A stretch of 42,808 nucleotides of DNA from Gammaproteobacteria bacterium (lineage in GTDB: Bacteria > Pseudomonadota > Gammaproteobacteria > SZUA-152): positions 1-42,808 of the forward strand of contig JAKIUN010000031.1 of the NCBI GenBank assembly GCA_021647505.1, written 5' to 3'. This document shows, piece after piece, positions 37,791-42,287 of this stretch; the first letter of the stretch is position 1, and each line of letters begins with the position of its first letter. The notes beneath the pieces were generated by a model that saw nothing but the letters and a program-made list of their open reading frames with translations, had not been told where the DNA came from and searched no databases. The position numbers were made by a program, and so were the translations under genes.

Positions 37791-37941
37791 CTTAGGTGTT
37801 TGAATAGCGAAAACATGCCTGAATTTTATGGCGTTATCAAGATGAATGGACTTGTTTTTAGGTGACTGTCGAATGTTATTGCTTGATTTTTGGCCTAATA
37901 TTGCAGGAAAATAGGGAAATTATGCTTAATGCCAATAAGTT
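37788..37941 (+). repeat. Long direct repeat, copy 1
   Basis: About 154 bp that recurs at 39629-39789 with scattered differences: it starts TTGCTTAGG, contains AGCGAAAACATGCCTGAAT and GGCCTAATATTGCAGGAAAA, and ends CCAATAAGTT. In both places it follows a methyltransferase remnant. The ending resembles an insertion-sequence end, but no transposase is next to it. Confidence 0.85.
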
Positions 37942-37975: not shown

Positions 37976-38411
37976 ATGATGAAGCCTGCGTTTACGAAAG
38001 TGAAAACAAATTATAAAACACAGTCTACACAGATACACACATGCTCAATGCATTTTCCTAATACGTGTGCAATACGAATGAGTGAAGCACTTGTCAAGGC
38101 TGATCCAAAACTTTTAGATGCCTTCAAAAGATCCTCGAAGAACAAGTGTCCTCATGGTTATATTCGTGGCGCCCAGGACTTGGCTTCTATTTTAGCTCTA
38201 CCGAGCGTATGGGGAATACGAACTCTCGGTTGGAATGCCCAGCCAAATGGATCAGCTCCCGCAAACGCTATTGGAAAAAAAGGAGTTGTTTGTTATATGA
38301 ATGTCCCTGGTTTTTAACGGTCAGGGTCATATCGATTTATGGGAAAATAACGTTGCTGTCGGGGACTCATATTGGGATGCAAAAACGATTTGGATGTGGA
38401 CATTGTCATGA
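37976..38411 (+). pseudogene. tae4: T6SS amidase effector Tae4-like, one-base frameshift
   Basis: The frame beginning at 37976 reads SMHFPNTCAIRMSEALVKAD with the catalytic-type Cys31, then CPHGYIRGAQDLASIL and KKGVVCYMNVPGF, and stops at TAA 38315-38317. Deleting one T from the TTTTT run at 38311-38315 restores a 144-residue protein continuing NGQGHIDLWENNVAVGDSYW with catalytic His118 and ending at 38411. Tae4 enzymes cut peptidoglycan peptide stems and are injected by type VI secretion. GAGGAG lies 9 nt before the ATG. The restored stop overlaps the next start as ATGA, which supports a real frame. Either a recent mutation or a sequencing error. Confidence 0.8.
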
Positions 38412-38836
38412 AAAGTTTTTCTTTTGTAATTTTTTTTACTGTCGCGGGTTGTTCATATGCCGACCCACTATTAATCTTTGACTCCAAACTGGAGCTAAAT
38501 GCAAATTGTACGCTATCAGTGACACAGCCAAAAGGTGAGATGGAAAAAATTTATTTTTTTGAGAAAGAATTATCGAAGAATTGCCGGTTTATTAATCATT
38601 CCCAAACCAATATTCCTCATGCAGAGCGGATTGGTAACTTTTATGTTTTGCTGGTCGAGACACTTGCGGAGAATAAGGAGCGATGTATTGCGAAATACAC
38701 GGCTATCGCTGTTGCAAACAATGGAGTTGTTTACCTAAGTTCAGTAACAAAAACAAGTGGTACATGCAATATTGGTAGAGAGCGAAAGGTGTTTGAATAT
38801 TTTGCACACAAGATGCAATTGTCGGAAGTTAAGTAG
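38408..38836 (+). CDS. Candidate immunity protein for the Tae4-like effector
   Basis: A 142-residue exported protein: signal peptide MKSFSFVIFFTVAGCSYA, then a mature part with several Cys residues (NANCTLSV, SKNCRFIN, KERCIAKY, SGTCNIG) and probable beta strands. Its start overlaps the restored effector stop by ATGA, and periplasmic location is what an amidase immunity protein needs. It does not resemble the known alpha-helical Tai4 proteins, so it could be a new immunity family. The role is inferred from position only. An in-frame ATG 36 nt upstream would lie before the signal peptide and is rejected. Confidence 0.65.
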   Translation: MKSFSFVIFFTVAGCSYADPLLIFDSKLELNANCTLSVTQPKGEMEKIYFFEKELSKNCRFINHSQTNIPHAERIGNFYVLLVETLAENKERCIAKYTAIAVANNGVVYLSSVTKTSGTCNIGRERKVFEYFAHKMQLSEVK

Positions 38837-39071: not shown

Positions 39072-39212
39072 ATTTTTCATGATGGAATGTATTGCTTAGC
39101 CTTCCTGGGTACCCTCGCCGAAGCGCATCACCGATTTAATACCGTTATTCATACGTATTGTTTGATGGGTAACCACTATCATTTATTGATCATCGGTGTC
39201 CGGCCAAAATAA
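39072..39212 (+). pseudogene. REP-associated (Y1) transposase fragment, N-terminal part
   Basis: The frame reads CLAFLGTLAEAHHRFNTVIH, then TYCLMGNHYHLLII, the conserved HxH region of Y1-type (RAYT) transposases, and stops at TAA 39210. Upstream there is a related FHDGMY segment without a start. The catalytic tyrosine part is missing. A C-terminal-type fragment occurs at 41920. Confidence 0.75.
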
Positions 39213-39628: not shown

Positions 39629-39789
39629 TTGCTTAGGCGTTTGAACAGCGAAAACATGCCTGAATCATATGGTATTATCAAGATATCAAGGAAAATTGCT
39701 TGTTTTTAGGTGGTTGTCAAGTGTTATTGCCTGATTTTTGGCCTAATATTGCAGGAAAATAGGGCAGTTATGCTTAATACCAATAAGTT
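39629..39789 (+). repeat. Long direct repeat, copy 2
   Basis: Second copy of the 37788-37941 repeat, again downstream of a methyltransferase remnant. It ends with CCAATAAGTT, immediately before the hairpin cluster at 39787. Confidence 0.85.
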
Positions 39790-39972
39790 CGGCAGGTTGC
39801 GGAGCTAGCGCTCCGCAACCTGCCGAACGCCCGAGTTGACAGGAGACCTGTCGACCGCCTGCTTCGCTACCTGCGAACCAGTCGTTCGACAGGCATGTTT
39901 GCCAAGATAATTGGATTCCGCAGGCTCCATCCATTATCTTGGCAAACCCGCCTGTCAACTCGGGCGTTATAC
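39787..39972. repeat. Cluster of four nested hairpins, attC-like site 1
   Basis: Hairpin 1: 19-bp perfect stem 39787-39805 with 39810-39828, 4-nt loop. Hairpin 2: 18-bp perfect stem 39826-39843 with 39951-39968 (AACGCCCGAGTTGACAGG). Inside hairpin 2 lie hairpin 3 (8 bp, 39847-39854 with 39886-39893) and hairpin 4 (15 bp, 39897-39911 with 39933-39947). The right foot reads GGGCGTTATAC, like the R' box of integron attC sites (GTTRRRY and Vibrio-type GTTATGC), and an open frame starts 37 nt later. The long perfect stems are atypical for attC. Confidence 0.6.
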
Positions 39973-40002
39973 GTCTAAGTCACCATCTTTAAGGAGTAAA
40001 AG

Positions 40003-40668
40003 TTGGCATTACCAAAATGGGATAAAAATAAAATTTTCGCGAATTTTATCAAACGGCAAGCAAGAAATAGGCTTGAAGAATTTCGCCAGTATACCCTTGA
40101 GATTGAGTCAAAATTTAATTCCGATAAAAATGCTTTATCAAATTCTTATGATGAGGCTGTTAAGGGGTTATCAGAGGATGAAATAAGAGAGGTGGATGAC
40201 TATTTTCCTGATAATTATTACATGATTGAAGAAATATACATTGATATGTATAGAAAATCCACATTAGTTTCTGTTTATTCATTTTTAGAAAATTCGATGA
40301 ATGATCTTTGCAGATGTTTAAGTTTTAGACAAAATTACCCCGTCATGCTAAATGACCTTAGAAATGAAGGTATTGTAAGAGCGAAAGACTACCTTGAAAA
40401 GTTGGCTAAAATTGATTTTTCCGCAATAAACGGAGAGTGGAGCCACATGAAGACTCTAAATAAAATTCGTAACTGCATTGTTCATTCAGAGGGTGATATT
40501 AAATCTTCGAAAAACTCATCTCAGTTAGAGAATATTGTTGCAAATAACCCAAGTCTTTCCCTAAGGAATGAGCGAAATATCAAGATAGAAAGAGAATATA
40601 TTGATTTTAGCATTAATAAAGTGGAAGAGTTTCTTGACAAGCTCTATCAGCAGGCATTTGCAAATTAA
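40003..40668 (+). CDS. HEPN-domain protein (cassette gene)
   Basis: A 221-residue protein with an HEPN-like helical fold and the RX4H motif typical of HEPN ribonucleases: LNKIRNCIVHSEG, Arg156 and His161. It starts with TTG, with AAGGAG 6 nt upstream. AT content is much higher than in the core genes. HEPN RNases act in toxin-antitoxin and phage-defence systems; no paired nucleotidyltransferase (MNT) antitoxin is present, so self-control or a single-gene mode is possible. The gene is flanked by attC-like site 1 (39972) and site 2 (40664), which supports a gene cassette. Confidence 0.7.
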   Translation: MALPKWDKNKIFANFIKRQARNRLEEFRQYTLEIESKFNSDKNALSNSYDEAVKGLSEDEIREVDDYFPDNYYMIEEIYIDMYRKSTLVSVYSFLENSMNDLCRCLSFRQNYPVMLNDLRNEGIVRAKDYLEKLAKIDFSAINGEWSHMKTLNKIRNCIVHSEGDIKSSKNSSQLENIVANNPSLSLRNERNIKIEREYIDFSINKVEEFLDKLYQQAFAN

Positions 40669-40757
40669 ACGTCCAACAATCACATGCACTCGGGCAGCAA
40701 AAAGCGCGGCTCGTTCCTCGCTATGCTTTTTGCTGCCGGTGATGTGAGGCGTGATTC
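40664..40757. other. attC-like site 2
   Basis: The stop of the HEPN gene overlaps AAACGTCC, followed by CACAT (40681-40685) and a 13-bp stem GGCAGCAAAAAGC (40693-40705) pairing with GCTTTTTGCTGCC (40725-40737), then ATGTG (40742-40746) pairing with CACAT and a right foot GAGGCGTGATT. The foldable layout is attC-like, but the R' box (GTGATTC) is degenerate. Confidence 0.5.
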
Positions 40758-40774
40758 CAAAGAGGTGATGAATT

Positions 40775-40963
40775 ATGAGTACAGCAAAAGAAGAAGTGAG
40801 GGCACTTCTGGATAAACTCCCGGACGATTGTTCTCTGGAGGATGTCCAATATCATATTTACGTTGTAGAAAAGATCAACAGAGGAATCGAGCGTGCCGGG
40901 AAGGAAGGGACTTTTGGTCAGGATGAGGTGGAAAGGAAGCTCAGTAAATGGACCTCGAAGTAG
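40775..40963 (+). CDS. Antitoxin of a RelE/ParE-type module
   Basis: A 62-residue protein: KEEVRALLDKLPDDCSLEDV, then QYHIYVVEKINRGIERAGKE and GQDEVERKLSKW. This is the common small partner of RelE/ParE toxins. The toxin gene overlaps its end by 16 nt (40948-40963). GAGGTG lies 5-6 nt before the ATG. Type II modules of this size are frequent in chromosomal integron cassettes, where they stabilise the array. Confidence 0.8.
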   Translation: MSTAKEEVRALLDKLPDDCSLEDVQYHIYVVEKINRGIERAGKEGTFGQDEVERKLSKWTSK

Positions 40964-41262
40964 AATGGTCTCCTGAGGCAACGGAAGACCTCGAATCAAT
41001 CGCGGAATATATTGCGCGAGATTCAGAGTTTTACGCCCGAGCAATTGTTACAGAAGTATTGGCAGTTTCTCGAAGTATCCGCGAATTCCCTTTGATCGGT
41101 CGTATTGTGCCAGAGATTGATAATGATCGTATACGGGAACGGCTCGTATATAGCTATCGTCTGGTATATGGAATTGAGTCTCAGCGGATCTTGATTGTGG
41201 CTGTTATCCATGGCAAGCGTTTGCTGGAAAACGTCTCGGAACGATTTGATGAGTGCACATAA
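40948..41262 (+). CDS. RelE/ParE-family toxin
   Basis: A 104-residue toxin of the RelE/ParE fold: VEWSPEATEDLESIAEYIAR, then SIREFPLIGRIVPEIDND, RERLVYSYRLVYGIESQRIL and VAVIHGKRLLEN. The segments P-x-GRxVPE and the terminal HGxR-like HGKR are family hallmarks. RelE members cut ribosome-bound mRNA and ParE members poison gyrase; sequence alone does not decide. The stop codon overlaps the start of attC-like site 3. Confidence 0.87.
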   Translation: MDLEVEWSPEATEDLESIAEYIARDSEFYARAIVTEVLAVSRSIREFPLIGRIVPEIDNDRIRERLVYSYRLVYGIESQRILIVAVIHGKRLLENVSERFDECT

Positions 41263-41329
41263 CCAGACGCTGCACCTGACCGCTCCAGTCGCAGGCTCCT
41301 TTCGCGGCAGGTAAGCTTGGTCGTTAGCC
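41258..41329. other. attC-like site 3
   Basis: The best attC candidate. It begins CATAACCAGACGCTGCACC, has the paired segments ACCTGACCGC and GCGGCAGGT, and ends AGCTTGGTCGTTAGCC with the R' box at 41323-41329. Overlap of the toxin stop with the left foot and a start codon 9 nt after the right foot fit the compact layout of integron cassettes. The box GTTAGCC deviates from GTTRRRY at one base. Confidence 0.75.
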
Positions 41330-41337
41330 AAAAAAAT

Positions 41338-41919
41338 ATGAACAGCACACTAAAAAATGAACTTATCAGGCTTGCTGACGAAGATCAGGCTTTAATTGAA
41401 AAATTATCAAATACTGGTGAGTTAGCAAATTATAAGGATGAGCCACATCCAGAAATAAAGAAAATATTTGAAAGAAACACCAGGCGAGCAAAGGAGATAA
41501 TTTCAGCTTTTGGTTGGCCAACCATCAGTAGTGTAGGTGAAAAAGCATCAGACGCTATGTATTTAATTGTTCAACACTCCGTTTTGGAGCCAGAGTTCAT
41601 GCAATCCTGCGTTCCTCTTCTTGAGGAACAAATTAAAAATAATGAAGCAAAAGGGTGGCAATTGGCATTTCTGCAAGATCGAACATTAATGCAACAAGGG
41701 AAACCGCAAATATATGGAACACAGCATGATGTAAATAAAGATGGGATCATGGAACCATATGAAATACAAAACCCAGAAACAGTGAATGAAAAGCGGCTTT
41801 CATTAGGGCTGGAAAGGCTAGAGGAAAAAACAAAAGAACTTCAAGAAAGGTATGATGCTACTCAGGCTGCAAATGAAGCTAGGAAATTAAAAATGGCTAA
41901 CGAAAACGAATTAAGTTAG
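41338..41919 (+). CDS. DUF6624-like cassette protein
   Basis: A 193-residue protein resembling the DUF6624 family: NELIRLADEDQALIEKLSN, FGWPTISSVGEKASDAMYLI, VQHSVLEPEFMQSCVPLLEE, QLAFLQDRTLMQQGKPQIYG and TQHDVNKDGIMEPYEI. Function is unknown. The C-terminus (about 150-190) is charged and coiled-coil-like. The ATG comes 9 nt after attC-like site 3; no ribosome-binding site is visible, as in some cassettes. No attC-like site follows; instead remnants of other elements begin. Confidence 0.75.
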   Translation: MNSTLKNELIRLADEDQALIEKLSNTGELANYKDEPHPEIKKIFERNTRRAKEIISAFGWPTISSVGEKASDAMYLIVQHSVLEPEFMQSCVPLLEEQIKNNEAKGWQLAFLQDRTLMQQGKPQIYGTQHDVNKDGIMEPYEIQNPETVNEKRLSLGLERLEEKTKELQERYDATQAANEARKLKMANENELS

Positions 41920-42084: not shown

Positions 42085-42165
42085 TGACTGCGAAAGCAAG
42101 TACAGCCGAGGAGCCTCGTGAGGGAAAACTTCATGCGGGGATCTGTGCGCTTTCTATTACCCATA
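42085..42165 (+). other. Possible group II intron 3' remnant
   Basis: The text GAGGAGCCTCGTGAGGGAAA followed by CTTCATGCGGGGATCTGTGCG looks like the structured segment found after the reverse-transcriptase gene in some bacterial group II introns. No reverse transcriptase or domain V is recognisable here. Assignment is by pattern only. Confidence 0.3.
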
Positions 42166-42287
42166 AGTTATGTATTCTGTGCGAGAATCCAGCCCCGTGA
42201 AATATCATTTAGGATCGCTCGAATAATAACTGTCGATTTTTGATTGGATAGATAGTAACTTAAGTTTTTTCGATATGGAGATCGCAA

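Follow-up and report, generated by a model that had tools for sequence, protein, structure and literature searches.

Integron integrases use an attC site in the form of its folded bottom strand, which they recombine with a double-stranded attI site. Recombination crosses over at a G^TT, and which attC strand is used depends on the unpaired central spacer and the extrahelical bases of the folded site. When VCR is recombined by IntI1, deletion of the extrahelical bases results in a ~6-fold loss of integration and a looser strand choice, and removal of these bases together with pairing of the spacer lowers integration 8.5x10^4-fold (PMC2727003). Cassettes that lack a gene are known, for example in Vibrio and Treponema arrays; those described in the accessible portions of these reports have a classical attC and often a promoter, and a gene-less cassette reduced to a perfect palindrome does not appear in those portions (PMC11014356, PMC8876359). 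Our literature search on the origin of cassettes and on genomes with many attI sites found little; it is incomplete, and such an absence proves little.

The window, the whole 42,808-nt stretch analysed here (contig JAKIUN010000031.1 of a Gammaproteobacteria bacterium), contains a 179-bp, gene-less, cassette-like unit at 39788-39966 (+ strand). Its boundaries, read from the sequence, are ...AATAAG^TTCGGCAGG...CTCGGGCG^TTATAC (AATAAG^TTCGGC...CGGGCG^TTATAC); that is, it begins with the TT of an attI G^TT and ends with the G of the following one, filling exactly the gap between the attI-like sequence and the next cassette. The unit is probably a gene-less integron cassette in first position, consisting of essentially nothing but an attC-like site. 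Its cassette behaviour is well supported; its current activity, origin, and function are matters that we infer. Like the ORF-less cassettes in the accessible parts of PMC11014356 and PMC8876359, it has no gene, has an attC-type end, and lies within an array, here at the first position. However, it is only 75 or 179 bp long, depending on the copy, contains little beyond the attC-like palindrome, and has no promoter-like match on either strand, unlike the described examples with their classical attC and frequent promoter.

The preliminary description had reported four nested perfect hairpins at this place, and all four are present with every stem perfect. The 19-bp stem (39787-39805/39810-39828) closes on a TAGC loop and forms hairpin 1 (39787-39828), in which the start of the cassette pairs with sequence reaching the R'' box GCCGAAC (39822-39828). 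The 18-bp stem (39826-39843/39951-39968) shares the AAC at 39826-39828 with the 19-bp stem and encloses an 8-bp stem (39847-39854/39886-39893) and a 15-bp stem (39897-39911/39933-39947), the last of which widens to an inverted repeat of 24 nt with 92% complementarity. When both strands are folded, a check that had been proposed, the energy lies far below that of shuffled sequences. The + strand of the block, folded as DNA, reaches -78.5 kcal/mol compared with -28.1 +/- 3.1 kcal/mol for shuffles (z = -16.5), the - strand gives z = -16.8, and 0 of 200 shuffles match the fold energy of the block. Thus, the block is not a chance arrangement. The preliminary description was also right in placing it after a direct repeat and before the first cassette; the direct repeat is the attI-like sequence.

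A search of the window's own genome (G000) reveals one strong second match, on contig C46 (G000:C46:866-949 and 854-874), so the earlier proviso that no other copy might exist does not apply. This second copy (G000:C46:859-933, minus strand) is 75 bp long, has both outer hairpins, and lacks the two inner ones together with a 104-bp stretch of the window copy. The 75 shared bases are identical (75/75), and the boundaries correspond (...AATAAG^TTCGGCAGG...CTCGGGCG^TTATAT). In contrast, the surroundings differ: the 157 bp of attI flank to the left are only ~60% identical, and the 150 bp downstream show ~53% identity with gaps, which is background. A 235-aa ORF that looks like a GNAT acetyltransferase lies downstream of the C46 copy. 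The unit is therefore a discrete one that occurs in different neighbourhoods, next to two attI sites and before unrelated downstream cassettes. An assembly artefact seems unlikely, with two contigs of different flanks carrying the same palindrome, albeit in one draft genome.

The 75-bp form makes the architecture plain. If its two ends are joined at G^TT, the 75-mer forms a perfect palindrome of 34 bp whose loops measure 3 nt (AGA) and 4 nt (TAGC), and when circularised it folds as a dumbbell in which the two outer stems become one uninterrupted 34-bp stem. Opened at G^TT, this circular palindrome must appear in the linear DNA as two neighbouring hairpins with a common AAC/GTT, and this accounts for the overlap between the 19-bp and 18-bp stems. 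In the circular form the R'' box GCCGAAC is the exact complement of the R' box GTTCGGC. Both boxes lie close to the RYYYAAC/GTTRRRY consensus (6 of 7 positions), and GTTCGGC deviates from GTTRRRY at one position. The left half of the palindrome is the exact complement of the attC-like right half plus the cassette start; the right half, TCAACTCGGGCGTTA, we take, as a lead only, to resemble the L'-R' half of an ordinary attC.

Within the array, the attC-like site spans 39822-39973 (+ strand), from R'' GCCGAAC to R' GTTATAC, with the perfect 18-bp stem as its outer stem. It resembles attC sites (59-base elements, VCR) in the complementarity of R'' and R' around G^TT, in its symmetric stem, and in a variable terminal structure, which is branched in the window copy. 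It differs from them in having neither an unpaired central spacer nor extrahelical bases, and in pairing 16 bp past the R-box AAC/GTT into the cassette body. To compare it with other sites, integron regions selected by intI were fetched from the family, class, and phylum, and a simple attC finder returned 224 attC-like candidates, counted on both strands and uncurated, with some false ones among them. Perfect pairing from the AAC extends for 18 bp at the window site and for at most 9 bp in the other 223 candidates; in 202 of the 224 it is 3 bp, stopping right after the AAC as an unpaired spacer predicts. The C46 copy, with 46 nt from R'' to R', is too short for the finder and has the same 18-bp arm. 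This survey bears out the earlier remark that the pairing exceeds what an ordinary attC needs. Long perfect inner stems also occur in other attC-like sites (for example, at locus L205), and the distinguishing trait is the absence of the spacer and bulges, not stem length. Because spacer and extrahelical bases were looked for and a continuous 34-bp stem was found instead in the circular fold, we do not class the site as a canonical attC but describe the whole as a cassette-like unit whose attC-like site is fully paired. The suggestion of a compound recombination site comes close, given the G^TT bounds, the complementary R''/R' boxes, and the presence at two different attI sites.

Beyond these two copies, the two-hairpin layout with long stems turned up at no other place searched. 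A scan of ~1.37 Mb of integron DNA, drawn from the family, the class, and the phylum, gave nothing that resembles a 19-bp stem beside an 18-bp stem; its matches were short (8-13 bp) apart from two of unequal arms (12 with 8 and 22 with 9), in numbers little above those of shuffles. Apart from G000, none of 24 family genomes and none of 369 class genomes matches the 75-bp unit. Hairpin 1 is without a match in viral contigs, the plasmid collection gave no match, and a narrow pattern scan of genome contigs found no long form.

The adjoining attI-like site (39687-39789, + strand) ends ...GCTTAATACCAATAAG^TT and is 85% identical to the attI consensus query. This repeat recurs often in the genome, the genus, and the family; each time it runs as far as ...AATAAGTT, and beyond that point the copies diverge. 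A model search for integron integrases finds one intact intI (G000:C39:7934-8887, 445 bits) and many fragments in the genome. At C39:8990-9094, between this intI and its array, the repeat occupies the place of attI and points away from intI; thus, the repeat is attI, and integrase and attI are present in the same genome. At least 16 attI-like copies exist in the genome, counting one partial copy and the one beside the C46 unit. Two are in the window, the second at 37845-37941 (+ strand), 1.8 kb upstream, with no hairpin unit after it; contigs C93, C67, C46 (2), C28, C9, C39, C111, C1, C88, C71 (2), C102, C23, C47, and C48 carry attI-like copies. Cassettes behind other copies start at the same GTT, and the hairpin block is absent from the other copies examined. 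Several members of the family likewise have multiple attI-like copies. It is unusual for attI sites to be scattered in this way with no intI beside them; they may be what is left of repeated integron platforms.

Downstream of the unit the array continues with a cassette at 39967-40762 (+ strand), which starts TTATAC and contains a 221-aa ORF of no family (40003-40668). Its attC-like site (~40672-40762, + strand) has bulged bases; this site and those in C111 show the usual bulges. A second cassette (40763-41326, + strand, start approximate) encodes a ParE-type toxin (ORF 40948-41262; Pfam ParE_toxin, E 3.6e-17) and has its attC-like end at ~41255-41330 (+ strand). The ORF of a third (41317-41919, + strand) matches DUF6624 (Pfam, E 7.8e-23), and no attC was identified after it. 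Elsewhere in the window, an ORF in cassette position after the first attI (37976-38317) has a match to Tae4-like type VI amidase effectors (E 5e-7), and the 154-aa ORF of no known family that follows it (38372-38836) could be its immunity partner. At 42108-42176, a sub-threshold Rfam match (E 0.003) to group II intron domain V is joined to CTTTCTATTACCCATAAGTTATGTA; the junction with CTTTCTATTACCCATAAGTTATGTA recurs at loci L077, L120, and L178, preceded there by a different sequence.

Paired hairpins also invite comparison with mobile palindromes. Palindromic elements derived from IS200/IS605, and REPINs, consist of two neighbouring hairpins, a likeness that the unit shares. A short palindromic transposable element of this kind (MITE/REPIN-like or derived from an IS200/IS605 Y1 system), inserting beside the conserved attI core, would account for the hairpins; the 6-bp repeat that flanks the 104-bp stretch could be a target duplication, and a broken Y1/RAYT-like coding remnant (...YCLMGNHYHLLI...) lies ~600 bp upstream. 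Yet the genome contains just two sets of these hairpins, both exactly at the attI crossover point for IntI, the ORFs listed for the surroundings of the C46 copy include no transposase gene, and such an element has no need of R''/R' complementarity across the joint. We consider this explanation unlikely. The related idea that the block is the single-strand substrate of a Y1 transposase is not supported, given the same distribution, and the sole Y1-like sequence nearby is the short broken remnant. That remnant (39073-39210, + strand, ...HTYCLMGNHYHLLI...) is followed by another that seems to resemble the C-terminal end of an RlmD-like 23S rRNA uracil methyltransferase.

Another candidate explanation is a pair of regulatory hairpins (terminator, attenuator, or mRNA-stabilising) retained in the interval from the cassette promoter to the first cassette; in both copies attI lies immediately upstream and the first gene downstream. 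Weak terminator-like matches exist: on the minus strand of the window at 39828-39787, and at C46, where the same hairpin is matched antisense and hairpin 2 sense. In addition, known gene-less cassettes often act on transcription, according to the accessible part of PMC11014356. However, there is no proper T-run, the pair is absent from the other attI copies examined, and the block has no Rfam match at gathering score, the permissive threshold giving only a sub-threshold match to mir-1255. The stems are identical in both copies and therefore offer no compensatory changes. A regulatory role as the explanation of the unit is thus quite improbable, and the lack of an Rfam match and of compensatory changes leaves the structured RNA envisaged in the preliminary description unsupported.

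The unit is found beside two attI sites whose neighbours differ, and this shows that some process placed or exchanged DNA precisely at G^TT. If the unit is a gene-less cassette, it would have been moved in trans by IntI, the product of the one intact gene on C39, acting on the single strand in its folded form; as a single-stranded circle of 75 nt, the unit would take the shape of a dumbbell. Since the unit is devoid of both the unpaired central spacer and extrahelical bases, weak, strand-blind recombination is predicted: it should recombine poorly and without strand preference. Repeated movement of the present form by IntI would consequently be hard to explain, there are just two copies of the unit, both in one genome, and the R' box deviates from GTTRRRY at one position; these points weigh against the cassette reading. 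Integrase acting in trans, perhaps at a low rate or at a time when the site was less perfect, seems most likely.

Poor predicted activity would be explained if the unit were instead a decayed remnant, in which the gene was lost and the attC was made palindromic by fold-back repair in place, and a copy of which then reached the second site alongside an adjacent cassette or through ordinary recombination, rather than through IntI acting on this site. The many attI copies, some flanking blocks common between genomes, and the exact complementarity of the left half to the attC-like right half plus cassette start are in keeping with such a history. With attI flanks only ~60% identical, however, a recent homologous exchange across them is unlikely, and the different downstream cassettes require a crossover exactly at G^TT. 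We consider this account very unlikely.

The 104-bp stretch that distinguishes the two copies (39853-39956, + strand, from the two-copy comparison) contains the 15-bp hairpin in full and the greater part of the 8-bp one, and it is bounded by CCTGTC 6-bp repeats (39847-39852 and 39951-39956). Alone, the 104 bases fold into two hairpins and, if closed, also form a dumbbell; they were not found elsewhere in the genome or in the fetched loci. They may be an insertion in the window copy, or slippage between the 6-bp repeats may have deleted them from the C46 copy. Possibly they are a second cassette that was integrated at G^TTGACAGG on the bottom strand; the far junction, GTCGACAGG, is one base off this reading.

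A hint as to how a gene-less cassette of this kind could arise comes from a relative, G005, in which an attI (L077) is followed by the same first 15 bases, GTTCGGCAGGTTGCG, as the palindromic unit. Thus, this cassette start is present in a second species, where it precedes what looks like a DNA cytosine methyltransferase cassette. In L077 (3219-3300), attI plus GTTCGGCAGGTTGCG is followed by divergence and, ~30 bp on, by a second core-like AAGTTAGG, possibly a remnant of the palindromic unit. Fold-back copying of an attC right half together with a cassette start like GTTCGGCAGGTTGCG would yield the observed palindrome. The cassette might then have been born by fold-back synthesis, with the half-site L'-R' and the start of the following cassette copied back on themselves into a perfect dumbbell that integrases could insert on either strand. 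We regard this birth as a tentative and rather doubtful proposal.

If it is true, the fold-back unit would represent an integron element of minimal size with no gene, and its formation a natural way for new attC sites to appear. As a natural, cassette-like unit at two attI sites that lacks both spacer and extrahelical bases, the block offers a test of the need for these features beyond the IntI1/VCR pair. Because excision of the adjacent first cassette would have to involve this site, which is predicted to be poor, the unit may also lock that cassette in place. It bears on the origin of attC sites and on the possible locking of an array's first cassette.
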